Below, piece after piece: positions 4,153-27,968 of a DNA stretch of 62,582 nucleotides. Within the stretch, counting starts at the first letter, position 1, and each line of letters begins with the position of its first letter. The DNA is from Cyanobacteria bacterium FACHB-471 (GTDB taxonomy: Bacteria > Cyanobacteriota > Cyanobacteriia > Elainellales > Elainellaceae), in contig JACJOC010000032.1 of the NCBI GenBank assembly GCA_014695345.1, forward strand, positions 1 to 62,582. The letters run 5' to 3'. The notes beneath the pieces are model-generated. The model searched no databases. It worked only from the letters and a program-made list of their open reading frames with translations, and was not told the DNA's origin. A program made the position numbers and the translations under genes.

Positions 4153-7100
4153 ATGTCTAAAACATCGTCCTCTGTGAGTTTAGAGGACATTCTAATTACG
4201 GAGGCGTTAGCTCAGAGATCGCTTCGAGCCGCAAACCTGGAGGCTGAGACTCAAGCCCTTCATACGCTGGCGCAGCAGCTAGCAGCACAGTCACAAACCA
4301 TGCTAAGAACGCTGGTGACTGTGGCGAGAGATTTGTGCCAGGCAGGAACCGCCGGGGTGAGCTTACTAGAGGTCACTGCTGAGGGGGAGGAAGTCTTTCG
4401 TTGGATTGCGGTTACCGGAGCTTTAGCTGACCATGAGGGAGAAATACTGTCGAAAAGCCTTTGTCCTTGCGGTGTCTGTCTAGACCACAAAGCCCCTCAA
4501 CTCTATACCTATCCTGAACGTTACTTCACCCACCTGCATTCTTTTCAACATCCTTTTGTTGAAGAACTCGTCTTGCCGCTCCGGGTAAACGATCAGCCGC
4601 TCGGTACTCTCTGGGTTTTGTCTCATACTGAGCAGCAACGGTTTGACTGGGGCGATCAGCGCTTAATGACCAGCCTTGCGGGCTTTGCAGCAGCAGCTTT
4701 GCAGAGTCTAAGCCTGTATCAGAAGGCTGAAGCAAGTTTGCTGCCACGAGAAACGGAACTGAGATCGATCACGAATGTTATCCCCGCTTCTATTGCCTTT
4801 GTTGATTCTGAGCAGAGATATCGCTTTACCACCCAGAAGTACGAAGAATGGTTTGGGGGTTTTGTAACCAACCTTTGTGGCAAGGCAATCCAGGAAGTGT
4901 TAGGTGAAACGGTGTATGCCACCCTTCGCCCTTATGTAGAGCAAGTCCTGACAGGAGAGCAAGTCACATTCGAGCGTGAGGTTTTGCTTCAAGATGGCAG
5001 AATCCGTCATGTAGAGGCAACCTACGTGCCTCAGTTTGCAGCGTCAGGCAGCGTTGAGGGTTTTGTGGCGTTGATTAGCGATATTAGCGAACAACAAAAC
5101 GCCTTGCGGGGTCGCAGGCAAGCGGAAGAGGCATTGCGAGAGAGTGAAGAGTTAAAGCAAAGCATCTTGGAGAGCAGCAAAGACTGCATCAAGGTTTTAG
5201 CGTTGACTAGTGAAATTCTCTATATCAGTAAAGGTGGGCTATGCCTTTTAGAAATTGATGATCCGTCCTCCATCCTCAATACCATTTGGACTGACCGTTG
5301 GCAGGGTGAAGACCATGAAAAAGCAAAAGCTGCGATCGCCGCTGCCAAAATGGGAAACACAGGTCAATTTCAAGGCTATCTCCCTACTGCTAAGGGCACA
5401 CCCAAATGGTGGGATACCATTGTTACACCCGTGCGTGATGCCGCTGGACAGGTTGTGCAACTGGTAGCAATTTCACGGGATATTACCGAAGCAAAGCGGG
5501 CTGAAGCCGAACGTCAGCATGCAGAAATGGCGCTGCGAGAAGCGCACGTGCAGTTAGAGTCTGCGCTGGCAGCAGGAGCGATTTACATCTGGCGTTGGAA
5601 TATCCCTGTCGATCGTGTTGTGGTAAACGGAGCGTTTGCTTATTTGTTTGGGGTTGACCCAGACATTGCGACAACTGAGGGATTGCCGCTTGAGTTCTTT
5701 GTCCAGTCCATCCATGAAGAAGACCGCCCTCGCGTTTCTGCTGCGATTCAGCAGGCAATCGAAACAGGCAGGGAATATGCGGCTGAGTACCGCATTCAAA
5801 CGACTTGTGGAGAAGAGCGTTGGCTCAGGGCACGGGGACGAGTTGAATATGATGCAACAGGCAAACCCATTTCCTTTCCGGGTGCCTTGATTGATATTAC
5901 CGATCGCAAACAGGCAGAAGAATCCTTGAAGCAGCTTTCCACCGAGCTGGAGCAACAGCTCCAAAAGTTTGATGCCGTTGCGTCTTCTGTGCCAGATTTT
6001 ATCTACACCTTTGATTTGTCAGGACGGTTCACCTACGCCAATCAGCCCTTGCTTGACCTTTGGCAAAAAACGCTGTACCAAGCGGTGGGCAAAAACTTCT
6101 TTGAACTCGATTATCCAACCGAGCTAGCCGCACGTCTGCAAAAGAAAATTCAGGACGTGATCGCTACGCGTCAGCCGCTCAAAGACGAGTCATCTTACAC
6201 AACCGCGTTTGGCACCAGAGCTTACGAAGATATCTTTGTGCCGATCTTCAACCCAGATGGCACTGTGCAAGCGGTAGCGGGAACAACTCGTGACATTACC
6301 GATCGCAAGCAAATTGAGATTGAGCGAGAGCAAATCTTACAGCGAGAACAAGCCGCACGAGAAGCGGCTGAACGGGTCAACCGGATTAAAGACGAGTTTT
6401 TGGCCGTCCTATCGCATGAGTTGCGATCGCCACTTAACCCAATTCTGGGATGGATTCAGATGATTCGCAGAGGCAATCTTGACACAGCCAAAACTGAAAA
6501 AGCCTGGAAGACGATCGAGCGTAATGCCAGGCTGCAAGCCCAACTGGTTGATGATCTGCTAGATGTCTCTCGAATTTTGCAAGGCAAGCTCAGTTTGAGG
6601 GTGGGTCAGGTTCCCTTAGCTGCGACCATTCGAGCCGCCATTGAAACGGTGCAACTAGCAGCCCAGGCTAAGTCAATCGAGATAGAAGCAACGCTGGACA
6701 CTAAGATTCCATCGGTTTTGGGAGACTCAACCCGTTTGCAACAGGTGATCTGGAATCTGCTCTCAAACGCAGTTAAATTTACACCGGAAGCGGGCCAGGT
6801 CACTGTGCGATTAGAACAGTTGGATCACCATGCTCAAATCAAGGTGAGCGATACAGGCGTTGGCATTCACCCAAGCTTTTTGCCGTGCGTGTTTGAATGT
6901 TTCCAGCAGGCTGACAGCGCAACGACTCGCCGATTTGGGGGACTGGGGTTAGGACTGGCGATCGTGCGTCAGATTGTCGAGGCACATGGGGGAACGGTGT
7001 TGGCAGACAGCCCTGGAGAAGGACAGGGTGCAACCTTTACCGTGAGACTGCCGCTTACGTCTGCTCAGCCCACAGCAGAGCTAGACCGGCAGCCTTTAGA

Positions 7101-16516: not shown

Positions 16517-16683
16517 GCTTTTAACTAAACACGGAAAACGAACAGCTTCCCTATCCTAACGAATGCTCAAAGGTTGGACGGACTGGCTCCCTAGCCATTT
16601 TTCCAGGGGCGTGGCTACCGATTTGCCTGATGCTGCTAACCAGGACGGTTTGGCATTCTGAAGAAAAGCATTGGAGAATTGCC

Positions 16684-17574
16684 ATGACGACCTTATCAGA
16701 CTTCTCAGATGAACTGGCAAATGCGATCACCCAAGCTGCTCCGATGATTGTCACCTTACCATCGGGACGCTTTGCCATTAGTGGAGTTCATTGGCGATCG
16801 GGACTTGTTGTCACCACTGTTGATGCGGTGCGCTGCAAAAGAGATATGACGCTGATGACTCCAGAGGGTGCGTTGTCTGCAACTGTTGTGGGCACAGATC
16901 CGGGAACAGATCTTGCAGTGCTGCGCGTTGATGCGCCTGATCTACCGACTGCTGAGTTGGGCGACCTGGATACACTGCGAGTTGGGCATTTAGTGTTAGC
17001 GCTTGGACGTTCGGATGATGGTAATATTCGCGCTAGCTGCGGCATTCTGGCATCACTGGGAGGAGAGTGGCAAAGCTGGACAGGCGGTCGAATTGATCGC
17101 TTAATTCGTCCTGATATTCGACCGTTTCCAGGATTTTCTGGCAGTCCGCTGCTCGATACTCAGGGTCATGTTTTGGGAATCAATACGACGCATTCACGCG
17201 GTCGCTTTGCCATTACCATTCCGATCACAACGGTGAATCGCGTCGTGGATCAGTTGGTGCAGCACGGACGAATTACACAGGGCTATTTGGGCGTGGGACT
17301 ACAGCCTGTGGAGTTGACGACACAGTTGAAACAGTCACTCAACCTCACTCAAGAGGTGGGTGTGTTAATCGTGAGTGTGGAAGCAGATAGCCCCGCCGAT
17401 CGCGCTGGAGTACTCATTGGAGATATTTTATTAACGTTGAGGGGTGAGGCGATCGCCAATGTGCAAGCGCTGCGATCGCAGCTTCGGTCAGAGCAGGTCG
17501 GTCAGCCCATTACTGCACAAATGATTCGGGGCGGACAGCTAATCGAGTTGACTCTAACCGTCGGTGAACGTTAA
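16684..17574 (+). CDS. HtrA-like protein with PDZ domain, probable pseudo-protease
   Basis: The protein has an S1C (HtrA/Deg) chymotrypsin-like fold followed by a PDZ domain (about 195-290; QGYLGVGLQPV, DSPADRAGVLIGDILLTL). The Asp motif is present (GTDPGTDLAVL) and the Ser motif is FPGFSGSPLL. The segment aligning with the catalytic-His motif TNNHVV reads TTVDAV, so the His is missing and proteolysis is unlikely. There is no signal peptide, unlike periplasmic HtrA. I chose the ATG at 16684 (GGAG upstream); the frame is open back to 16630. The stop lies 22 nt upstream of the LuxR gene GTG. Together they look like a binding/sensing pair. Confidence 0.85.
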   Translation: MTTLSDFSDELANAITQAAPMIVTLPSGRFAISGVHWRSGLVVTTVDAVRCKRDMTLMTPEGALSATVVGTDPGTDLAVLRVDAPDLPTAELGDLDTLRVGHLVLALGRSDDGNIRASCGILASLGGEWQSWTGGRIDRLIRPDIRPFPGFSGSPLLDTQGHVLGINTTHSRGRFAITIPITTVNRVVDQLVQHGRITQGYLGVGLQPVELTTQLKQSLNLTQEVGVLIVSVEADSPADRAGVLIGDILLTLRGEAIANVQALRSQLRSEQVGQPITAQMIRGGQLIELTLTVGER

Positions 17575-17596
17575 CCCTGCCTGTGAGGAAGCTCCG

Positions 17597-18232
17597 GTGA
17601 TTCGTGTTTTGATCGTGACTCGCTCATTAATCATGCAAGCAGGGCTGGAGGCAATGCTAGTCCGCGAGCCAACGATTCAAGTCGTCGGACGTACAGTCGA
17701 TCTGACGACGCTGGAGCAATTCTTCCGCTCTCAACAGACCGATGTGGTGGTACTGGAGTTTGCCCTGCTGACAGATACCAACCTGGAGATGCTGACCAGT
17801 CAAGAGGAGGTAGCGATCGCTCTCTTGGTAAGTCCAACTGAAGCCTACTCCGCCATACCCCTGCTGAAATCAGGTGTTCGGGCGATTCTACCCCTGGATA
17901 TTACAACGGATGAAATGATTCTCACGGTTGAGGCGACCGCGGCGGGTTTGGTGGTTTTGCATCCTGATGTATCTGACGTTTTGCTTCAGGAATTGCCTGA
18001 ATCGAATGAACCCGTACATTCTGAGGAGCTGGATGCCCCTCTCACCCCCCGCGAAGTAGAAGTGCTGCAACTGATGGCAACGGGTTTGGGGAATAAGGCG
18101 ATCGCCCGTCAGCTCAACATCTCTGAACACACCGTCAAGTTTCACATTAGCTCGATCTTCTCTAAGCTCAACGCTTCTAGTCGCACCGAAGCAGTTACGC
18201 TGGGAATGCGGCAGGGACTTATTTTTATTTAA
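17597..18232 (+). CDS. LuxR/NarL-type regulator with a degenerate receiver
   Basis: The N-terminal receiver-like domain (about 1-120) lacks the acidic pocket (VLIVTRSL) and has Glu where the phospho-acceptor Asp should be (VVVLEFALL). The C-terminal LuxR helix-turn-helix is intact (LTPREVEVLQLMATGLGNKAIARQLNISEHTVKFH). The start GTG at 17597 follows GAGGAA with 6-nt spacing; an alternative GTG at 17564 would overlap the protease-like gene by 11 nt. Activity is therefore probably phosphorylation-independent and could be set by the upstream HtrA-like partner. Confidence 0.9.
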   Translation: MIRVLIVTRSLIMQAGLEAMLVREPTIQVVGRTVDLTTLEQFFRSQQTDVVVLEFALLTDTNLEMLTSQEEVAIALLVSPTEAYSAIPLLKSGVRAILPLDITTDEMILTVEATAAGLVVLHPDVSDVLLQELPESNEPVHSEELDAPLTPREVEVLQLMATGLGNKAIARQLNISEHTVKFHISSIFSKLNASSRTEAVTLGMRQGLIFI

Positions 18233-18268: not shown

Positions 18269-19045
18269 TTATGACACCAGTGTATTCTCTGCCCCTATTC
18301 TCGGTCTTGACGGTGTTTGCACTTTTTGAAGCAGTCGTAATAGATTTCTACCCAAAATCAATGCTTCCTGTTTAGGAGGTAAACCGAGCAAACGAATTTT
18401 GTGTAACTCTAGACCGGGATGTAACCAGGGACCATCCGAACCAAAGAGAACTTTGTGAGCACCGCCGCGCTTCACTGCTTGTACCACATAATCGAACCGT
18501 CGAACGCCTGATGTATCAGCGTAAACATTGGGAAATCGAGCAATTTGATCAATGACTCTCAGATGAGCACGCCAGTCATCAGCAAAACTGCCAAGATGGG
18601 GCAAGATGAAATTCACGTCTGGGTATTGTGGAGCCAACAGTTCAATGACATCTGTTTTGCCAGCAACATCGTAGAGGAGGGGAAGCCGAAAGCGATGGGC
18701 AACCTCACACACTTCGCGAGTAGCAGGGGCTTCATGTCCGTGAACTTTGATGCCGCAAAATCCCCACTGGTTAACTGCTTGCTGAATAATTTGATAGACA
18801 CGACCGCGATCGCGCTGAGCATGAATAAAAGCAAAACCAATAAAGCGATCGGGATACCTGGCGACGATTCGAGCCGTATGGGCGTTCGCCTGTCCATAGT
18901 TACTGTGAAAGGGCGAAAAGATGACTGTTTTGTTAATTCCCACAGTATGTGCCCGCTTCAAGTAGAGTTCAACAGGTGCATCTGTATCCCAGGGGCCCGT
19001 GAGTAAATCACCTTTTCCAGCATGACAGTGGCAATCAATGATCAT
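18269..19045 (-). CDS. Amidohydrolase family metal-dependent hydrolase
   Basis: This is a 258-residue TIM-barrel hydrolase. The metal-site motifs are in order: H-x-H (MIIDCHCHAG), Lys/His region (GIKVHGHEA), His (ILPHLGSF) and the late Asp (LFGSDGPW). It fits the amidohydrolase-2 group of decarboxylases and lactonases; the substrate is unknown. Its ATG overlaps the upstream stop (ATGA), so it is translationally coupled to the WLFEAP-motif gene, which ties it to the unusual cluster at 19.9-26.2 kb. Confidence 0.85.
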   Translation of the reverse strand: MIIDCHCHAGKGDLLTGPWDTDAPVELYLKRAHTVGINKTVIFSPFHSNYGQANAHTARIVARYPDRFIGFAFIHAQRDRGRVYQIIQQAVNQWGFCGIKVHGHEAPATREVCEVAHRFRLPLLYDVAGKTDVIELLAPQYPDVNFILPHLGSFADDWRAHLRVIDQIARFPNVYADTSGVRRFDYVVQAVKRGGAHKVLFGSDGPWLHPGLELHKIRLLGLPPKQEALILGRNLLRLLQKVQTPSRPRIGAENTLVS

Positions 19046-19578
19046 CGATAAGCCCCCGCCGTATTTTTCGAGGTAACCTCCTGAGTTGTCAATATCCTAA
19101 TTCTAAGCTTGTCAAACTTCTTCTTATCTGCTCTAACCAGCCCCTGTGCGCTCTTGCCAATTGTGTCAAGGGTCGATTGGAGCCTACGGGATAAATTTGG
19201 TGTAACCACTAAAACTTTGCCAAATGTTGCTAAATACCTTGTAATCTGCGCCATCTTGCGACCGTTCATTTTCTCAGCAAGTGTAATTTCGACAGGGGTA
19301 CCTCTGTATTGAGAGTCTGGGTGCCCTGTACCTATTACTTTCTCTCCTGGTTTGAGCCTGAACTGCGCCCTTACAAGCCGTTCGTAGTCACAACCTGCAC
19401 AGTTCTGATCAGTTTTTGCTAACTTTATTATTTCAGCTTGTAATTTAGCCGCTTCACCAGTAAAGGGTTTAGCTCCCTTGGTAATCTCAACTAGTGGTGG
19501 AGCTTTAACGGGCGCAGCCATGTATTCTGTATCAGGGCGAAGAGGTGCTTCGAACAACCATTGATTTTGCAGCGTCAT
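19042..19578 (-). CDS. Uncharacterised protein with N-terminal WLFEAP motif
   Basis: The start is the ATG at 19578, which has a perfect AAGGAG 6 nt upstream. The 178-residue product begins MTLQNQWLFEAPLRPDTEY. The short F-E-x-P motif recurs near the N-termini of the two repeat proteins upstream (VFEIP and FESP). The central part has a Cys pair (NCAGCDYERLVRAQF) and GEKVIGTGHPDSQYRGTP; the C-terminal third is Lys/Arg-rich. I do not recognise a domain. A 330-nt gap with repeats separates it from the HESVH gene, and its stop is coupled to the amidohydrolase. The N-terminal motif may be a targeting tag shared by the cluster. Confidence 0.75.
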   Translation of the reverse strand: MTLQNQWLFEAPLRPDTEYMAAPVKAPPLVEITKGAKPFTGEAAKLQAEIIKLAKTDQNCAGCDYERLVRAQFRLKPGEKVIGTGHPDSQYRGTPVEITLAEKMNGRKMAQITRYLATFGKVLVVTPNLSRRLQSTLDTIGKSAQGLVRADKKKFDKLRIRILTTQEVTSKNTAGAYR

Positions 19579-19930
19579 TGTTTTCTCCTTATCCAACAAT
19601 CTCTGGAGATGGCATCAGTTTCTTCGCGGGTACTTATAGAAATTGAGTGATTCAGTAAGGCGGTAAAGCCTGCTCAAAGAGCTGCCTTTGCAGGCTCAGA
19701 TACCTGATCAAACAAGAATGAGTCTTTGAGGCTCGTGGATGAGATAGCTGAGGCTCATGAATGAGGCACGAAGATTCATTAGCTCGAAGATTCATTAATA
19801 AGTGTCTGAATCTCGCTGACGAATATCTGAGACTCGTCAGCGATCGCCAAGCTATTACGCATGGGACTTAAAGATTCAAACTGGACACTCAGAGCTTGGT
19901 GTTTCGGACCCGCATATTGAACACGCTGCC
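19579..19930. other. Gap with short repeats and a hairpin inside the minus-strand cluster
   Basis: The region holds tandem copies of CGAAGATTCATTA at 19769-19781 and 19785-19797, and a perfect inverted repeat CGCTGACGA/TCGTCAGCG at 19814-19822 and 19834-19842. The hairpin is not followed by a U run on the minus strand, so it is more likely a processing or attenuation site than a terminator. No coding frame is convincing. Confidence 0.55.
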
Positions 19931-21088
19931 CTAGCCCATCATTTTTGGGCCAGGCATCATTCCCCTGGGTCTGCCAATTATCGGTTCGCGACGCATTCCA
20001 GAGGGCGGCGCACCGGGCATGTAAACCTGACGCGGTGGCGGAGTTGGGCGGCTAACGCGCATTCCCTCTTCGCTCGAAATCCACTCTTCGGCGTATTCGG
20101 CGATCCGCAGCAGCAGAGCTTCAAACTCGCTGCGGTTTTTCTGAAGCACAAACGGTTCTGCTAACCAGCGAATAATCTCACGTCCAGCAACCGCCATCCG
20201 GTTCATCGTACTAGCATGAACTGATTCGTGGAAGTACTGCCACAAAACGAGTTCAATCAGTTCCCAGGCGTTGTCGGCTCCAAATTGAGCGCGAACATCA
20301 GACGATTCCAGGATCTTAAAGCATTCAGCTAGTGCTTGACTGGTTTCAACGCGCAAGACGTTGATGTAGCCGTAGGATGAGTTCTTCAGGTTGTTACGGA
20401 GGTCTAGTCCAGAGCGGCGAACGATCGCAATCGAGCCAAATGTTGGATCGGTAGCGCGTTCGCGAATTACCTCACTGATGCGCTTATCACGCCAATATTT
20501 TGCCGCTTCGCCAATGAAGTGTGAGAATAATCCGTGAAACTGGGGATTGGGACGCGCACCGGGTCCAGGATCAACCGTGGTGTAGCCAAATACGCGCCGA
20601 TAGGCTCGCATCCGTTCGCGTTTGTGATAGCGCAAGATGTTGTGCTTGTCGAAGCGGTAGAGCCCATAAGCACCCTCACCGCTAGAAATTCGCAGTGTAC
20701 CGGCTTGAAAGAGTTCTTGCAGTTTGTCGATCACGCGGAACACGCCGAGCCGTTCGTGCATGTAGAGGTAATAGAGGTCGGCGCTCGCCAGGATACGCTC
20801 ACTCCTGACCGTATCATCATAATCCACTACCCCACTTGATACTCGTGCATCACCAAGATCGGTGGTGGCATCTTTACCGAATCCAATTAAATCAGCCAGT
20901 CCTCCATCTGCCGGAGCGCTTTTTCCATTTTGAGAAGCGTCATATTTTTGTAGCTGGTCATCGACCATGCGGTTGAGTACTTCTGCCAACTGCGGGTTAG
21001 CAACCAGTTCTGGTCCAAGTTGTTCGATCGTGTTTTGCAACAGTGCCGCGATTTGGTCATTGCGGCGATCGTAGTCGCGTGCTTTCAT
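19931..21088 (-). CDS. Uncharacterised protein with an HESVH motif and Pro/Gly/Met-rich tail
   Basis: The start at 21088 (MKARDYDRRN) is chosen because AAGGA lies 8 nt upstream; the frame opens at 21106. The protein has about 385 residues. A conserved-looking core (LYYLYMHERLGVFRVIDKLQELF) is followed by a helical region containing WQYFHESVHASTMNRM, an H-E-x-x-H sequence that could bind zinc, though no third ligand is certain. The last 45 residues are rich in Pro, Gly, Met and Arg (PTPPPRQVYMPGAPP, GRPRGMMPGPKMMG). I do not recognise a family. It is the last gene of a closely spaced five-gene run. Confidence 0.8.
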   Translation of the reverse strand: MKARDYDRRNDQIAALLQNTIEQLGPELVANPQLAEVLNRMVDDQLQKYDASQNGKSAPADGGLADLIGFGKDATTDLGDARVSSGVVDYDDTVRSERILASADLYYLYMHERLGVFRVIDKLQELFQAGTLRISSGEGAYGLYRFDKHNILRYHKRERMRAYRRVFGYTTVDPGPGARPNPQFHGLFSHFIGEAAKYWRDKRISEVIRERATDPTFGSIAIVRRSGLDLRNNLKNSSYGYINVLRVETSQALAECFKILESSDVRAQFGADNAWELIELVLWQYFHESVHASTMNRMAVAGREIIRWLAEPFVLQKNRSEFEALLLRIAEYAEEWISSEEGMRVSRPTPPPRQVYMPGAPPSGMRREPIIGRPRGMMPGPKMMG

Positions 21089-21140
21089 AATCAGATTCCT
21101 TATCAATAGTGCAAACGAAATTCACGAGTGCAAACAAAAC

Positions 21141-22595
21141 TTACATCAAGGTCCCTCCCAAGGGACGCTCTGATGAAATGCTGCCTACGCCTAGGCTGGC
21201 TAGCGTGTCGAGCTGATAGATCAGTTCGCTCAAGCTTTGCTGTACGCGCTCAAACGCCAGTACTTTGCCGAGCAGCTTGCCTTGGTTTCTATTGCTGAGC
21301 AGTCTGCCAGCCGGATCCTTCTGTGGCAGAACTGCATACAGAACTACACCAATCGTCCAAAACAGCGTGTCAGCCTGGTCGGTGACGAAATCCAAGCCAA
21401 ACTGTCCAGCGGTTGACAGCACCGAAGGAGCCTCTAGGCTGGTGAAGCGATCGACCCACTCATCAAAATCATTCACAGTAATGTCGGGTAAGATGATCGC
21501 GGCTTGGGTATTTCCCAGGGTAATCTTACCTGGAATGTTTGGATCTTCCGTTGGAGCTTGCAGATTACTAAATAGGGCTGAATCTGAGCGTCGCTCGCTT
21601 TGGGTAAAGCCGATCGAATCCATTGCTGACATTAAGCTGGCGTTGCTGTCGGCAATTACAGGCAACATAATGCTGGTACGCGATAAACGATCGCTGTAGC
21701 GTCCGGCGATTGGGCTGGTGCTTGTCTTGGCAGCTTCGTAATTTCTCCAACTCTGAAGCAGCGTTGTAACATATCCAATCAACAGTTCAAAGCCTGCAAC
21801 CTGTGTCTCATCCTCAAGCGTAACCGGGACAACTTTGAGTTCCAGACCAAACGCCTCACCCCGTCCCAAGTGAGCTTCTTCGCCTAAGCGATACAAGTAA
21901 CCATCTTCCCGTCCAGTTTCATCTCTGCCAAGCAGCGTTTTGAAATAAGTATCGACTCGCTGTTTGCGGGGTTCATCAAGCCGTCCAAATTCGTCGATTA
22001 AGCTGCGAATTTGTGATCGCACCAAAGCACGTAAGGCTTCCACAGCATCAATGTCTGCCTTGGGGTCAAACGGAGTCAGTCCGTCTAGCACTTTCAAGGT
22101 ATCACTACCAATAATTGAAGCTTGACGATAGAGATTTGCTTGCTCAACCGAAAGCTGTCCGGTTGATCCCTCAGTGATGGGTGAGTGCAGAGATACTAAG
22201 CTGCGGGCAGGCTGCATCATCACTTGCCCATCTTTTGCCGTAGGGAAGGCACTGTTCAGCGCACTAATAAACCCATCGGGACCACGACCGGGCGATCGCC
22301 CCAGCACTTGCGTTAGTGCTCGTTCCACTTGCAAAGTGAGTGAACTTGCAGCGCTGGATGCCCCTGATCGAACTGAGCCATTGTCATAAACAGTAGTTTC
22401 ATTGGTGGCAGAACGCCCCAGAACGCGCGTGATTTGCGCGAGTTGGTCGGCAATCAAAGCTTCCCTGGGAAGCGTACCTGCAATAGTGGCAGACGGTCCA
22501 AATAACTTATCGATGAAGCTCTGACGCAGTTCTTGTAAATTCTCAGGAGTGAGGCTTATTTCGGAACCTGCTGTGTCCTTGAAAGGAAATGCCAT
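21141..22595 (-). CDS. Uncharacterised 484-residue protein of the repeat-protein cluster
   Basis: GAGG lies 8 nt before the ATG. The N-terminal 100 residues are mostly helical with a Ser/Ala linker (SGASSAASSLTLQVERALTQVLG). The middle has charged helices (DIDAVEALRALVRSQIRSLIDEFGRLDEPRKQRVD), and a C-terminal hydrophobic stretch TLFWTIGVVLYAVLP may touch a membrane. There is no recognised enzyme motif. It is spaced 59 nt from the HEVSH gene and about 50 nt from the HESVH gene, both on the same strand. The function is unknown; a scaffold or partner of the two H-E-x-x-H proteins is possible. Confidence 0.8.
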   Translation of the reverse strand: MAFPFKDTAGSEISLTPENLQELRQSFIDKLFGPSATIAGTLPREALIADQLAQITRVLGRSATNETTVYDNGSVRSGASSAASSLTLQVERALTQVLGRSPGRGPDGFISALNSAFPTAKDGQVMMQPARSLVSLHSPITEGSTGQLSVEQANLYRQASIIGSDTLKVLDGLTPFDPKADIDAVEALRALVRSQIRSLIDEFGRLDEPRKQRVDTYFKTLLGRDETGREDGYLYRLGEEAHLGRGEAFGLELKVVPVTLEDETQVAGFELLIGYVTTLLQSWRNYEAAKTSTSPIAGRYSDRLSRTSIMLPVIADSNASLMSAMDSIGFTQSERRSDSALFSNLQAPTEDPNIPGKITLGNTQAAIILPDITVNDFDEWVDRFTSLEAPSVLSTAGQFGLDFVTDQADTLFWTIGVVLYAVLPQKDPAGRLLSNRNQGKLLGKVLAFERVQQSLSELIYQLDTLASLGVGSISSERPLGGTLM

Positions 22596-22654
22596 CTTTG
22601 CAACCTCATTAATATTGAAAGGAATGTTTTGAGAAACCGCTTGAAAGTTAACGC

Positions 22655-24043
22655 TTAACGTCGTCCCAAGATGCGGTAGAAATTGTCAGTAATCGTTTGG
22701 GGTGGGGCGAGACGCTGATCGAGCGCAAACCGAGCAGCGCTAATCATTAATCGAATCGGAACGGTTCCCGGATCTTCACCCTTTGCCAGTCGCCGACCTG
22801 CCAGCTCAATTAGCCCCATTTGTGCCGGGTCAAAGTTCACCACCTGCACCATTGACTTGTTGCCAAACTGTTTGTAAGGCTGAAACACCAGTGTATCCAC
22901 CACCATTTCAGCCGCCGGATAAAAGGTCTTCATGAAACTGGGGGGAATGTCATTTGGCGTAATCCGAGGATAAAGTCGCTGCCACACTCGCTCTAACTCG
23001 GTTGCCATCTTGGTGAACCCCAGCCGCTTTAGCAAAATCAAATTGATCAGCACTCGCAGATAAGGCGTTGGATGCACCGACAGTGGGTTGAATTGGACTG
23101 TGTCAGCAGGCGATCGCCCCACCACATCCATCAATGACTCCACCGCAGCAGGACCACCTAGCACCAGCGCAAACATATCTGCCATGGTTTCCTTGTGCCA
23201 TCGCGCCCACACCTGAGCAATCTGAGAGGGAAAACGTCCCTCTGTTGTCAAGCGGTGATAGAGACGGGCAGGAACGACCTCCCACAAACCCAAATCTGCC
23301 TGGAGGTTGTGAGACACTTCATGCAACACGCTAGAGAGTGCCCACACATTATCCAAACGATGCTGGGGCAGCATAATCAGCGGAAACAGATTTGAGTTGC
23401 GACGTAGTTTTGACAGCGGCACTCCCCGGCGGAAGGTGGCTGGACTGAAACCGCTGTCAGCATAGCTAAATGGCAACAAGCTAGGGGTGGGCTGAGCCGT
23501 ACCGAGACCACTGTAAACTCTTTCGTAGCAACCGATCGCAATGCGATCGATCGTTCGCAACCGTTCCCCAAATGACGAAAGCCGCTGCACAAATAAATCA
23601 AAGTAAAAATCCCAAATTCCTTCCAAATAAAGGACTTGGTTACTCACTGTTTGTTTACGCTCCAGCAGCACCCGCAACTGCTGGCTTGCAGGTTCACGGC
23701 GTGCTGCATTAGCAGCAGCTTCCACCCAACGCGCATTTTCGGTCAGTCGGCTGCGAAACTTTTCAATGAACCGATTTACGGCTTCAATGTGAGCCTCGCT
23801 AGGGGCTGCTGGTCCAGTCCCAAACTCATCTTTAGCAAACGGACGCAGCGATTTGGAATGCCGCATCAGGTTAATGGCTTGGACGTTTAGCCAATTATCC
23901 ATCAGGCGCTGCTCGCTGGAAGTGGCAGCTCCTTGGAGGTTATTACCAGAAACAACCTTCAGGGGTGGGATAGGCTTTGCTGAAGTGGTTTTTAGAGTGG
24001 CGGGTGCAGATGCCACCTTAGATGAAGCAGGTGAGGATACCAT
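22655..24043 (-). CDS. Putative zinc metallopeptidase (HEVSH)
   Basis: The 462-residue protein contains SSVLHEVSHNLQADLGLW, an H-E-x-x-H zinc motif (H241, E242, H245), and 39 residues later HKETMADMFALVLGGPA, with E285-x3-D289 as a plausible third-ligand motif of a gluzincin. A later LSVHPTPYLRVLINLILL resembles the conserved HP-x-x-x-R segment of some membrane-associated peptidases. There is no signal peptide; the N-terminus is Ser/Ala/Pro-rich and disordered-looking. It is downstream of the two repeat proteins, which are natural candidates for its substrate. Peptidase activity is inferred. Confidence 0.75.
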   Translation of the reverse strand: MVSSPASSKVASAPATLKTTSAKPIPPLKVVSGNNLQGAATSSEQRLMDNWLNVQAINLMRHSKSLRPFAKDEFGTGPAAPSEAHIEAVNRFIEKFRSRLTENARWVEAAANAARREPASQQLRVLLERKQTVSNQVLYLEGIWDFYFDLFVQRLSSFGERLRTIDRIAIGCYERVYSGLGTAQPTPSLLPFSYADSGFSPATFRRGVPLSKLRRNSNLFPLIMLPQHRLDNVWALSSVLHEVSHNLQADLGLWEVVPARLYHRLTTEGRFPSQIAQVWARWHKETMADMFALVLGGPAAVESLMDVVGRSPADTVQFNPLSVHPTPYLRVLINLILLKRLGFTKMATELERVWQRLYPRITPNDIPPSFMKTFYPAAEMVVDTLVFQPYKQFGNKSMVQVVNFDPAQMGLIELAGRRLAKGEDPGTVPIRLMISAARFALDQRLAPPQTITDNFYRILGRR

Positions 24044-24125
24044 ATTCGATTAGTGGCTGGAAGTGGGGACGGTTTGATGCATTCTGTTACGAGCTACATT
24101 TCAAAACTTAGAACTCGTAACCTTG

Positions 24126-25190
24126 TTAGCGAACAGCCCTTTTGCTGGCGCAACTAGGACAGCGGGCAGCCTGAGCAGCAGCGCGGCGGGGATTTGACGG
24201 AGCAACACGCTGACGCAAGACTGCATTCCGGGTGATAGAGCGCTGTACAGTCCGAGGATTGTTTAATACCTGTTGTGCTGAGGCTGCCATTGCTTTGACT
24301 GCCATTGCTCCAGTAATGGGCTTACCGGCACGGGAGGCCGCCTTTAGAGTGGCAACTGTTCGCCGTTGAATGGCAGGAACCGTCCGCAAGAGCTGTTTGC
24401 CGACCTTACCCTGCTGGCGTAGTGTCTTCACTAATCGACCATTGGCTTGAGCCAGAATAGGGGTTACGGGTCTGAGTGCCCGCTGTCCACCCATAATCGT
24501 AATTGTGATCGGCAACGCCGCAGCCGCAGCCGCTTCTGCCTCTGCCTCTGTTGCGGCTTCTGCCGCTTGTGCTGCTAAAACCTCAGTTAGAGCGGCTTCA
24601 TGAGCAATTTCAGTGTTAGCAACTTCTGCTTCAAACTCATTTGTGCCAAATAGTTGAGCTTCTAGTTGAGCCGCCTCCATTTCACCCTCTTTTAATAAGG
24701 CGCTGGTGAGTTTTCCGGCTAGTGGTCCTGCAACCGCTCCTACACCCGGTATCATTCCCACTAATGTTCTTGCTGCAATGGGGGCAAGCCTTTTAGCGAT
24801 CGGGGCTGCCACTTTGGCTAGTGATTTCAGCCCTCTGCCCAACTTCTTGAAGAAATACTCACCCTCATCCTCAAATTCAGGATTGTATAAAGCAGCTTCC
24901 TGCTCCCACTCACTTTCATATTCGGGATTGTATAAGGAAGCTTCCTGCATTTCCCACTCATTCTCGTATTCAGGGTTGTACTGGGAAGCTTCCTGCTCCC
25001 ACTCACTTTCGTACTCGGGATTGTACTGGGAAGCTTCCTGCTCCCACTCACTTTCGTATTCGGGATTGTACTGAGAGGCTTCTTGCATTTCCCACTCATT
25101 CTCGTATTCAGCAGTAGAGAAGGGATTGCTGTACTGAGAAACTTCATGGGAAGCAGGTATTTCAAATACGGCCTCGTTTTGCATCACCAT
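24126..25190 (-). CDS. Bipolar protein with acidic aromatic tandem repeats (paralogue 2)
   Basis: The 354-residue product has four parts. (1) An N-terminus with FEIP at 9-12. (2) Five 14-15-residue repeats of the type EYESEWEQEASQYNP at about 28-105. (3) A cationic, glycine-rich amphipathic segment at 114-166 (KSLAKVAAPIAKRLAPIAAR, then MIPGVGAVAGPLAGKL). (4) An acidic Ala-rich linker, then an Arg/Lys-rich C-terminus ending in CPSC (344-347) and KRAVR. The layout resembles a masked membrane-active peptide, but no function is known. AAGGAG lies 12 nt before the ATG. It is 31 nt downstream of its paralogue. Confidence 0.85.
   Translation of the reverse strand: MVMQNEAVFEIPASHEVSQYSNPFSTAEYENEWEMQEASQYNPEYESEWEQEASQYNPEYESEWEQEASQYNPEYENEWEMQEASLYNPEYESEWEQEAALYNPEFEDEGEYFFKKLGRGLKSLAKVAAPIAKRLAPIAARTLVGMIPGVGAVAGPLAGKLTSALLKEGEMEAAQLEAQLFGTNEFEAEVANTEIAHEAALTEVLAAQAAEAATEAEAEAAAAAALPITITIMGGQRALRPVTPILAQANGRLVKTLRQQGKVGKQLLRTVPAIQRRTVATLKAASRAGKPITGAMAVKAMAASAQQVLNNPRTVQRSITRNAVLRQRVAPSNPRRAAAQAARCPSCASKRAVR
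24870..25105 (-). repeat. Tandem 42-45-bp coding repeats
   Basis: Five copies encode E-Y-E-[NS]-E-W-E-(M)Q-E-A-[SA]-[QL]-Y-N-P. The DNA copies are nearly identical (for example GAAGCTTCCTGCTCCCACTC recurs on the plus strand), indicating recent slippage or duplication. Copy number is likely to vary between strains. Confidence 0.85.
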
Positions 25191-25221
25191 AATTCAACAG
25201 TCTCCTTATTGTTTGAATGAA

Positions 25222-26184
25222 CTATGCGGAACGGGAAATCGATCGACCCGGAGCAACAGTACGCTGACGAATAATGGCATTGCGAATCATTGCCTTAGTC
25301 AAAGTTTTGGAGTTACCAAATACTCGTGCAGCTTGAGCCGCCATTAATCGTTGAGCTAACGCCGCATTGATTGGCTGACCTGCACGTCGAGCCGCCCGTA
25401 GACTGGCGATCGTGCGACGCATGATGGTTGGCATCAGCCGCAAAAGCTGACGACCCGCCGGACCTTGACGATGTAAGAGCCGAACAAGTCGAGCGTTCGC
25501 TTGCACTAGAACTGGGATGATGTAACGTAAGGGTCGCTGTCCGTTCATACTCTTAACCGTGCTACTGACGGCAGCTCCCAGTAATGCCTCAGCTTCACTT
25601 TCACTTTGGCTGTGGCTTGCTTCGGCAGCTAGCACTTCGGTCAAAGCAGCTTCATAGGCAGCTTCTGTATTGCTAACTTCTGCTTCTGCCTCGTTTGTCC
25701 CAAAGAATTCTGCTTCCATCTGGACTGCCTCCATTTCGCCTTCTCGCAGCAAGGCACTCACCAGTTTCCCAGCTAAGGGTCCGGCTGCTGCTCCAACGCC
25801 GGGTATGGCTCCGATGAGGGTTTTGGCAGCAATGGGGGCCAGACGCTTTGCCAGGGGAGCGGCTACTTTGGCAATTTTTCCAATTCCTCGCAAAGCTTTT
25901 TTGAAGAAATACTCACCTTCTGTTTCCCACTCACTCTCCATTTCAGGATTAGACGAATGCAGAGCTTCCTGGACTTCCCACTCATCCTCAAACTCCGGAT
26001 TGGAGTAAGGATTGGCGTAGGGAGTTGATTCTTGCACTTCCCATTCATTAGCAAACTCCGGGTTGGAGTAATTGGTGGATTCTTGCATCTCCCACTCATC
26101 TTCTAGGTCTAGGTTTGAGTAGGGTGGTGACTCAAATTCCATTTCGGCAGTACTTGCTCTGCCGTTGGCATACCCGTTTGTCAT
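25222..26184 (-). CDS. Bipolar protein with acidic aromatic repeats (paralogue 1)
   Basis: The 320-residue protein has FESP at 17-20 and degenerate repeats of the N-P-E-F-x-[ND]-E-W-E-V-Q-E type at about 26-88. Next comes a cationic glycine-rich segment at 92-146 nearly identical to its paralogue (AKVAAPLAKRLAPIAAKTL, IPGVGAAAGPLAGKL), then EGEMEAVQMEAEFFGTNEAEAEV. The C-terminus is basic (LRRLMP-type Arg clusters). It lacks the CPSC tail of the paralogue. GGGAG lies 7 nt before the ATG. This is the first gene of the cluster, 43 nt from a perfect palindrome. Confidence 0.85.
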   Translation of the reverse strand: MTNGYANGRASTAEMEFESPPYSNLDLEDEWEMQESTNYSNPEFANEWEVQESTPYANPYSNPEFEDEWEVQEALHSSNPEMESEWETEGEYFFKKALRGIGKIAKVAAPLAKRLAPIAAKTLIGAIPGVGAAAGPLAGKLVSALLREGEMEAVQMEAEFFGTNEAEAEVSNTEAAYEAALTEVLAAEASHSQSESEAEALLGAAVSSTVKSMNGQRPLRYIIPVLVQANARLVRLLHRQGPAGRQLLRLMPTIMRRTIASLRAARRAGQPINAALAQRLMAAQAARVFGNSKTLTKAMIRNAIIRQRTVAPGRSISRSA

Positions 26185-26226
26185 GTTTGATCTCCCAGTT
26201 TGATTAGGGGTGTAATTTCTTAAGTT

Positions 26227-26249
26227 TTTTCAGTACTAGGTACTGAAAA
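26227..26249. promoter_or_regulatory. Perfect 23-bp palindrome upstream of the repeat-protein cluster
   Basis: TTTTCAGTAC (26227-26236) and GTACTGAAAA (26240-26249) flank TAG. It sits 43 nt before the start codon of the first gene. It is not followed by a T run in either direction, so an operator for a dimeric regulator is more likely than a terminator. Confidence 0.6.
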
Positions 26250-26490: not shown

Positions 26491-26551
26491 AACGTTTCTC
26501 TAAAAATAGGCTACAGAGGGAAGGGCACTCCGCGACGCGGAGTGCCCTTCC
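26491..26551 (+). repeat. Dispersed repeat family B, copy 1
   Basis: AACGTTTCTCTAAAAATAGG is followed by a perfect hairpin with 15-bp arms (GGAAGGGCACTCCGC, spacer GAC). The reverse complement of 32272-32340 has the same left flank and hairpin core, so both are copies of one element. Confidence 0.8.
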
Positions 26552-26726
26552 AGTGTTGCTGATTTGATGTATGAATTTCGTCGGATAACACATTGCCATC
26601 CCCCTACAAAGAGGATTGAGAGCCGTGAATCACACCCGTATATTCAGCAACGCCCAAAGTTTTTCCCTAAAGCAAACTAAAGGCTATGGTTTTAAGAGCG
26701 TATTGTCACGATTTAACAGTTTTTCA

Positions 26727-27968
26727 ATGGATCTAAAAATTACCAATGCAATTCTGCCCGGACGGCAAGGACAGTGGGATGTGGGAATTGCGGGCGATCG
26801 CATCACCCACATTGCCCCAACTCTAGCCGCATCCGCAACTCAAACTCTAGATGCTCAAGGAAACCTGCTGATTCCAGGACTGGTGGATGGGCACATTCAC
26901 CTCGACAAAGCCTTGATTCTCGATCGCTATCCAGCTTTAGATGGCACATTTGATGAAGCCCTACGCGAAACTTTGAAACTGAAGCAATCATTTACGATTG
27001 AGGATATCCAAAATCGGGCAAGACGGGTAATCGAGCAGGCGATCGCCTTTGGCACAACTGCCATGCGAACTCATGTCGAAGTCGATCCAACGATGGGGCT
27101 TGATGCGATGGAGGCATTGCTGCCTTTGCGGAAAGCTTACTCCTGGGGCATTACCCTACAGCTTGCCGTTTTTGCCCAAGAGGGAATTACAAACCACGAT
27201 GGATTAGTGGATCAACTCCGTCAGGCGTTAGCAATGGGAGGAGATGCGATTGGTTCTGCCCCTTACGTCGATCCAGATCCAAAGCAAAACATTGAAACTG
27301 TATTTGATCTGGCGCAGGAGTTTGACTGTGATGTTGACTTTCATCTTGACTTTTTAGATAACGATGAGCCGTTACTCTTACCGTTCGTGATAGAAGAAAC
27401 GGTCAGGCGAGGCTGGCAAGGACGGGTTTGCCTGGGACACATGACCAAGCTAGCAGCCTTAACACCTTCAGAACTAGAGACGTTTGCTGCTGCAATGCGA
27501 GAGGCAGGAGTGTCTGTTTTGGCGTTACCTGCAACTGACTTATACATGATGGCTCGCAAAGATACTCACAATGTTCGTCGTGGCATTGCACCTGTGCATC
27601 GTTTAGCAGAATTAGGAGTCACGGTTGGGCTGGCGACCAACAATGTCTTCAATCTGTTTACTCCATTTGGAGATGGCGATGTGCTGAAGCTATGTACCTT
27701 ACTAGCGCAAGTGCTGCACCTGGGAACCGTATCGAGCCACCAGCTTTGTCTGGAAATGGCAACCAGTCAGGCAGCAGCGGCGATCGGCATCCAGCATCAC
27801 GAAATTGAAGTCGGCAATGTAGCTGATCTGGTATTGCTGAATGTGCGTTCAGTCAGTGAGGCGATCGGTGCTGCCCCCATGGGACGCACTGTCATTAAAA
27901 ATGGAGTTGTTGTGGCACAAAGCAAAGTAGAACAACAGTGGTTTGTTCCCAAGCTAGTTTCTCTGTGA
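26727..27968 (+). CDS. Cytosine deaminase-like amidohydrolase
   Basis: The 413-residue metal-dependent hydrolase has the H-x-H motif in IPGLVDGHIHLDKAL, then TTAMRTHVEVDP, His in VDFHLDFLDND (DxHxD region) and RVCLGHMTKLAAL, the CodA-like arrangement. The late Asp motif reads VGLATNNVFNLFTPFGDGD. Cytosine deaminase and relatives hydrolyse exocyclic amines of pyrimidines and some creatinine-like compounds. I start at the ATG at 26727 (MDLKITNAILPG), the family start; the frame is open to a TTG at 26616. It begins a run of genes for taking up and breaking down nitrogen or carbon compounds. Confidence 0.85.
   Translation: MDLKITNAILPGRQGQWDVGIAGDRITHIAPTLAASATQTLDAQGNLLIPGLVDGHIHLDKALILDRYPALDGTFDEALRETLKLKQSFTIEDIQNRARRVIEQAIAFGTTAMRTHVEVDPTMGLDAMEALLPLRKAYSWGITLQLAVFAQEGITNHDGLVDQLRQALAMGGDAIGSAPYVDPDPKQNIETVFDLAQEFDCDVDFHLDFLDNDEPLLLPFVIEETVRRGWQGRVCLGHMTKLAALTPSELETFAAAMREAGVSVLALPATDLYMMARKDTHNVRRGIAPVHRLAELGVTVGLATNNVFNLFTPFGDGDVLKLCTLLAQVLHLGTVSSHQLCLEMATSQAAAAIGIQHHEIEVGNVADLVLLNVRSVSEAIGAAPMGRTVIKNGVVVAQSKVEQQWFVPKLVSL

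Follow-up and report, generated by a model that had tools for sequence, protein, structure and literature searches.

What is the function of seven consecutive genes of which just one encodes a protein that reaches a Pfam or NCBIfam cut-off? The window considered here, the whole 62,582-nucleotide stretch of Cyanobacteria bacterium FACHB-471 that was analysed (contig JACJOC010000032.1), holds such a block on its minus strand, at 18269-26184. The block encodes two paralogous repeat proteins (RepA and RepB, together Rep), a protein named here for its HEVSH motif, a protein of 484 residues (U484), a protein named for its HESVH motif, a variable protein with a WLFEAP tag near its start, and an amidohydrolase (AMH). 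Together, these genes suggest a so far undescribed way to store, export or deliver proteins. The account that we find most plausible, and that we hold tentatively, is that the cassette is a horizontally spread maker, loader and deliverer of interchangeable, often cell-wall-active cargo, which it would bring to or across the envelope, most likely against neighbouring cells. No description of the cassette was found in the open-licence literature of PubMed Central (PMC); subscription papers and preprints lay outside that scope, and a description may exist there.

The same genes recur in several phyla

When HEVSH was scanned against 84,980 species genomes, 13 loci came up, their best segments being 62-80% identical; they belong to Cyanobacteria and to metagenome-assembled genomes (MAGs) of Vampirovibrio, Acidobacteria, Thermomicrobiales and a lineage labelled Mycobacterium. 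The open reading frames (ORFs) of all 13 follow the same order: one to three Rep genes, HEVSH, U484 and HESVH, then variable genes. Altogether the cassette occurs in Cyanobacteria, Melainabacteria, Acidobacteria, Thermomicrobia, an actinobacterial MAG and a Paraburkholderia megaplasmid. The taxon labels of MAGs may be wrong, but the context of the Thermomicrobiales copy (a locus of 73% guanine-cytosine (GC) content on a 197-kb contig) and the Paraburkholderia record, a closed and complete megaplasmid with the full set plus an M20 peptidase gene and AMH, count against mislabelling. A second genome of the same phylum as the Acidobacteria MAG has the full set on a 210-kb contig. At locus L096, from a genome of that phylum, a protein that looks caspase-like by eye is encoded upstream of the cassette (4391-5230).

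Twenty-five loci were scored with profiles, five contigs stopping before the expected HESVH position. A profile-matched Rep gene lies immediately upstream of HEVSH in 23/25 of them, L028 and L043 having divergent acidic proteins in its place; U484 was found in 22/25; and HEVSH and HESVH are both present in all 20 loci that reach far enough, 15 of which had been located via HEVSH and 5 via HESVH. Dropped before these counts were L029, a chance-like match of 52 residues, and L031, L032 and L044, which are S8-type relatives; L055, the second contig of the L015 genome, was excluded as well. Since the same block recurs in other phyla, it is more than a chance arrangement. The sequence-only reading had called these genes a candidate undescribed system and had staked this beforehand on co-occurrence across genomes; that co-occurrence proved conserved, which supports the proposal. 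Two converging runs share the contig of locus L023 (8882-16962), Rep-HEVSH and, on the opposite strand, Rep-U484-HESVH-M20-AMH.

The cassette is rare and patchy. Among 60 relatives, HEVSH is present in 8 (a ninth match, 52 residues in G047, was excluded) and the Rep core in 7, all of them HEVSH carriers, with 13/13 places adjoining HEVSH; in the remaining carrier, G015, divergent acidic proteins occupy the Rep position. The Rep core is also confined to the cassette in eight more genomes or records, one of which (G031) had been counted before. HESVH was found in 7/386 cyanobacterial genomes, one being a weak S8-type relative, and HEVSH in 7/297 and 4/301 genomes of two other phyla, mostly as distant relatives. 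Both same-genus genomes, one of which is just 83% complete, lack HEVSH and the Rep core. A tree was built from 25 HEVSH proteins and should be read within the limits set by long branches and midpoint rooting; members from the host's own family fall in three of its clades, two of which include non-cyanobacterial sequences. Horizontal spread appears to be the best reading of this pattern. No relative of HESVH or HEVSH was found in viral contigs, and none of HEVSH in phage records.

Distant relatives lie in other gene neighbourhoods. Proteins of 600 residues with a distant HESVH domain are encoded at L031 (11269-13074), L032 (11134-12981) and L044 (8279-10156), from a Burkholderia plasmid, a Tolypothrix plasmid and a cyanobacterium, alongside an S8 peptidase and further proteins of no known family. 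These loci share with the cassette the distant HESVH domain, a run of unassigned proteins and, in L032, a PG_binding_1 protein, but differ in having no match to Rep, HEVSH or U484 and, judging L044 by eye, other N-terminal motifs; possibly they are a second kind of related system. Conjugative Bradyrhizobium/Sinorhizobium plasmids encode distant HEVGH relatives of HEVSH (L103, 8734-10155; L104, 8788-10176), with S8, CHAT, patatin, phospholipase D or C25 peptidase genes as neighbours, and of the eight distant HEVSH relatives some are found on rhizobial plasmids next to S8, CHAT or patatin genes.

The genes behind HESVH are variable and often tagged

The genes immediately after HESVH differ between loci, and many begin alike. 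The tag [WQ]LFE[AVILT][PT] stands within the first 40 residues of 12/21 genes after HESVH, from 18 loci with a called HESVH gene, versus 1/210 other ORFs, the single one being an additional tagged gene of locus L040. This count leaves out L030, where the simple gene caller did not pick up HESVH, and purposely omits L011, L015, L017, L018, L020, L021 and L023 (short contigs or GC-rich sequence). L016 carries the tag at residue 130, and a thermomicrobial cargo starts with MSTPRMALFEALP (LFEALP). In the genome of FACHB-471 the tag stands at a protein start solely in this cassette, with two more places inside unrelated proteins; over 27 genomes the pattern has nine places, namely five cargo starts, these two internal ones and two in G001/G002. 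Genes of the other clades lack the tag; acidic aromatic stretches occur in part of their cargo.

Of the 18 cargo candidates scanned with Pfam (a 151-aa candidate of L019 and those of L026 and L027 stood outside that scan), 8 have a cell-wall-type domain above cut-off. The domains above cut-off are PG_binding_1, SLT, Peptidase_M15_3, Extensin-like_C, DUF2272, Peptidase_M74 and OmpA, with PG_binding_1 joined to SLT or Peptidase_M15_3 in two candidates; Beta-lactamase2 (L019) and a GIY-YIG nuclease-like match (L040) fall below it. At distant HEVSH clusters, 3/7 scanned neighbour proteins hold VanY, PG_binding_1 or OmpA (L098, L101, L102), and AMH is also present at L098 and L101. The window's own WLFEAP protein has neither plasmid relatives nor a match among sequences of the Protein Data Bank (PDB). 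Within the first 60 residues of the 18 candidates no 15-residue hydrophobicity mean exceeds 1.23, a measure that is not a signal-peptide predictor, and Pfam found no trafficking domain of the type II, V, VI or VII secretion systems (T2SS, T5SS, T6SS, T7SS) or of Photorhabdus virulence cassettes (PVC) in the core and the 18 cargo proteins.

Repeat proteins of alternating charge adjoin a candidate metallopeptidase

The description of the repeat proteins as bipolar was right, because the net charges of their segments alternate in sign, over four blocks in both. RepB runs from -33 (1-114) through +9 (115-169; 8 Gly, 11 Ala) and -13 (170-224) to +25 (225-354), and RepA, 60% identical to RepB over the alignment, from -24 (1-94) through +9 (95-149) and -11 (150-190) to +19 (191-320). 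The acidic aromatic repeats follow an alternating E-F/Y-E-x-E-W-E pattern, in RepB as 15-residue units, and the first positive block of each protein (RepB 115-169, RepA 95-149) is a cationic Gly/Ala-rich stretch. Most clade-1 RepB orthologues start with MFEAP or LFEAP, the window's RepB having VFEIP. The locus does show a gene for a probable protease next to those of polyampholytes whose cationic segment is rich in Gly and Ala.

HEVSH has its HExxH at residues 241-245, and H241, E242, H245, E285, D289 and H324 are invariant across 21 distinct orthologues, down to about 30% identity. HExxH is retained in 8/8 distant homologues inspected, with a later W-x-x-E-type motif discernible by eye. Gluzincin-type zincins such as thermolysin and M48 combine HExxH with a downstream E-x-x-A-D. 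HEVSH shares both elements, and E285 is, by analogy, a candidate third metal ligand. It differs from these zincins in that it stays under the Pfam cut-offs, its profile finds no PDB sequence below E 0.29 and it has no fold match; VIA-align, applied to a structure model graded fair (pLDDT 71.5, pTM 0.72), gave chance-like helical rows, mainly over residues 39-153, with no zincin listed. The zincin label thus rests on the motif, since the model matches no fold, and HEVSH is best described as a probable protease and a candidate zincin.

We also considered HESVH as a second metallopeptidase and rejected it. Its site reads RESVH, HRSVH or HRSVN in 3/9 orthologues, and the HExxH-like site is lost in the Paraburkholderia orthologue (L030), so that of the two H-E-x-x-H proteins initially proposed HEVSH stands and HESVH does not. 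HESVH is 65-81% identical to eight orthologues and as low as 39% in another comparison; U484 evolves fast (26-58% identity to nine orthologues). Profiles of both gave nothing convincing against PDB sequences, a search that did not include Rep; the best HESVH match (E 6e-4) aligned its first 50-odd residues with designed helical proteins, and no stretch passes alone.

Layout and flanks of the locus

An ORF check of the window confirmed the gene order, strand and coordinates given by the sequence-only reading (Table 1). The HESVH gene is separated from the WLFEAP-protein gene by 352 bp, and the latter overlaps AMH by 4 bp. AMH matches PF04909 with 67.8 bits against a cut-off of 26.4, and its best PDB sequence is 3cjp (E 1.7e-5); the other six proteins remain below the Pfam and NCBIfam cut-offs. 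These six have no PHROGs match at the thresholds used (AMH was not submitted), nor do the block proteins match PADLOC at the thresholds used. The proposed coupling to an amidohydrolase holds in part: among the 20 loci extending past HESVH, AMH is present in 7 and an M20 peptidase in 5. Promoter- and terminator-like sites are not beyond chance (3 versus 7.9 expected and 9 versus 10.2 expected).

Table 1. Positions of the cassette genes and their sequence features in the window.
Feature	Position	Strand	Details
RepA	25222..26184	-	320 aa; acidic aromatic repeats, cationic Gly/Ala-rich segment, Arg-rich C-terminal core
RepB, RepA paralogue	24126..25190	-	354 aa; start MVMQNEAVFEIP; C-terminal CxxC
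Tandem repeat inside RepB	24875..25109	-	45-bp unit, 5.1 copies, unit type YNPEYESEWEQEASQ
HEVSH, candidate zincin-type metallopeptidase	22655..24043	-	462 aa; assigned from motif and conservation
HEVSH motif codons	23309..23323	-	read from the sequence
U484, core protein without known family	21141..22595	-	484 aa
HESVH, core protein without known family	19931..21088	-	385 aa, counted from the better-placed ATG
Variable tagged protein, cargo candidate	19042..19578	-	ATG at 19578 preceded by AAGGAG; no Pfam match
WLFEAP codons	19543..19560	-	residues 7-12 counted from the ATG
AMH, Amidohydro_2 family amidohydrolase	18269..19045	-	Pfam match; cassette partner in part of the loci

On the downstream side, an Hho-like serine protease gene overlaps a LuxR-type regulator gene (16630-18232). 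The LuxR gene (17564-18232) was rejected as a cassette member, as it is conserved together with its Hho-like neighbour in the same-genus genome G001 (80% DNA identity), where a 13.4-kb stretch holds no cassette gene. An empty insertion site cannot be drawn from this comparison, because the right flank was not located beside the Hho/LuxR pair in G001. On the other side, a perfect 16-bp inverted repeat with a 1-base loop (26519-26551) lies between the cassette and the divergent next amidohydrolase gene. It is followed by an element resembling a miniature inverted-repeat transposable element (MITE; 26552-26651), with imperfect 10-bp terminal inverted repeats GTTGCTGAAT/AATCAGCAAC and similar stretches of 30-65 bp at eight places in G001 and one in G002. 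The start of ORF 26616-27968 is doubtful, since its TTG falls inside the MITE-like element. The fold of 26520-26660 has a z of -6.0.

Discussion

How could such a cassette work? If it loads and delivers cargo, the core proteins HESVH and U484 would recognise the tag and the acidic aromatic repeats, while the cationic Gly/Ala-rich segment of the Rep proteins would enable them to serve as carrier subunits or as subunits that permeabilise the membrane. HEVSH may trim Rep and/or cargo, and the M20 peptidase and amidohydrolase, where present, perhaps work on the products or shield the producer. The target of the cargo would be antibacterial. Delivery might even proceed without a tube or motor, if acidic repeats and WLFEAP tags made cargo assemble with Rep and the cationic blocks of Rep itself into a carrier resembling a fibre or gel, which HEVSH would open and whose Gly/Ala-rich segments would breach the membrane; we regard this particular route as a long shot. 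Beta-strand co-assembly has been described for designed peptides such as P11-13 (EQEFEWEFEQE) (PMC3512519), whose alternating pattern is also that of the acidic aromatic repeats.

It is conceivable that the cassette acts on the cell that carries it, keeping hydrolases with the tag inside a condensate or fibre until they are released for regulated self-lysis or wall remodelling. The polyampholyte character of Rep, the cell-wall type of the cargo, the regulator genes (LuxR/GerE- or receiver-like) that adjoin 16/25 loci and the absence of any recognised export gear would all fit such a programme. However, variable cargo and patchy spread across phyla suit conflict better than housekeeping, and one cargo candidate (L040) is nuclease-like, albeit below cut-off. 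We consider a programme of the own cell unlikely, the least so among the alternatives.

Another scenario, doubtful in our view, follows the sequence-only reading in taking Rep for a masked membrane-active protein, in which the acidic repeats neutralise the cationic segment of Rep until HEVSH frees a pore-former or bacteriocin, the downstream genes being secondary. In its favour, both Rep paralogues have charge blocks that alternate and a cationic segment that is amphipathic, in 23/25 loci Rep is directly followed by HEVSH, and glycine zippers have precedents in the antibacterial effectors Tde1 (as presented in PMC10240207), EsxX and TelE. These have in common with Rep a glycine-rich segment, proposed here for membrane entry, but they are described as single T6SS/T7SS effectors, whereas Rep belongs to a cassette of its own and is a polyampholyte with repeats. 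The Rep segment is also just mildly hydrophobic (top 19-residue means 1.43 and 1.51), and masking explains neither the variable, often cell-wall-type tagged genes nor the MFEAP/LFEAP start that ties RepB orthologues to them. Still less probable is a cluster resembling those for ribosomally synthesised and post-translationally modified peptides (RiPPs), with the Rep repeats as precursor cores and HEVSH, M20 and AMH as maturation enzymes. One gene run does bring together repeats in units of 15 residues and a protease, joined at some loci by a peptidase and an amidohydrolase, and Amidohydro_2 and M20 are the only enzymes seen next to the core. But YcaO, ATP-grasp and radical-SAM families are absent among the scanned proteins, and it is the C-terminal Rep core that is conserved, whereas repeat number and sequence drift.

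The nearest known kinds are polymorphic toxin systems and phage-tail-derived extracellular contractile injection systems (eCIS); the defining features of each were tested, and the cassette conforms to neither. With polymorphic toxin systems, as portrayed in PMC3482391, it has in common variable effector-like proteins behind a common N-terminal part, a metallopeptidase at the locus, and PG-binding and OmpA domains among the effectors, which that source also notes among PVC-delivered toxins. Variable domains behind a constant N-terminal region are found in one clade of the cassette, with a WLFEAP-like start before the candidate toxins. Yet this common part is a six-residue tag or acidic stretch rather than a trafficking domain with repeats (no known trafficking domain was found), a core gene of its own encodes the protease, immunity genes were not identified and the core has no family matches. 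With eCIS and the PVC the cassette shares a short N-terminal cargo signal, toxin-like cargo near the core genes and a patchy spread, but neither sheath, tube and baseplate genes (window proteins against Pfam and PHROGs) nor an AAA ATPase were recognised in it. That it is an accessory of an eCIS elsewhere in the genome is the least probable explanation of all: a phage-sheath gene is present in 11/15 carriers (only carriers were counted), including FACHB-471 itself (contig C49, 37419-37799), and PVC effectors load via N-terminal signals according to PMC11495950, but 4/15 carriers, among them the single-contig genome G010, have no sheath match, and the window's core proteins have none in PHROGs.

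Several observations weigh against our preferred reading of the cassette as a system that loads and delivers cargo. The tag is limited to one clade and lacking in 9/21 genes, two of which, a Uma2-like gene and an M20 gene, are not cargo, and its p of 1e-13 is descriptive, because the pattern was drawn up after the tags had been seen. Enrichment of acidic aromatic stretches is modest (6/21 versus 11/210, p 0.002), with 5 of the 11 background ORFs being Rep-like core proteins. Ten of the 18 cargo candidates, the window's WLFEAP protein included, have no cell-wall match above cut-off in Pfam, and 2 of the other 8 are counted for DUF2272 and Extensin-like_C, which we take to be of cell-wall type. 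The cassette holds nothing recognisable as an ATPase, a pore or a known secretion gene, and no immunity family was recognised among the seven window proteins, small neighbours not being part of that search. M20 and AMH are optional, AMH being absent at eight loci with long downstream stretches (L022, L024, L026, L027, L028, L041, L042, L043). The weak HESVH relatives (L031, L032, L044) sit in loci without HEVSH, and the distant HEVSH relatives (L097-L104) in loci without matches to Rep, U484 or HESVH. Finally, the AlphaFold model of HESVH is unusable (pLDDT 38.8), and Foldseek gave no match at E <= 0.001 for that of HEVSH.

Even with its mechanism set aside, a cassette that is conserved in several phyla and whose core belongs to no Pfam, NCBIfam, PHROGs or PADLOC family represents unexplained biology. 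If the cassette does load and deliver cargo, it would be a compact route for doing so, unlike the secretion systems considered here and made of four protein families without known kin plus a six-residue tag, and the tag would offer a handle for finding effectors that have so far gone unrecognised.

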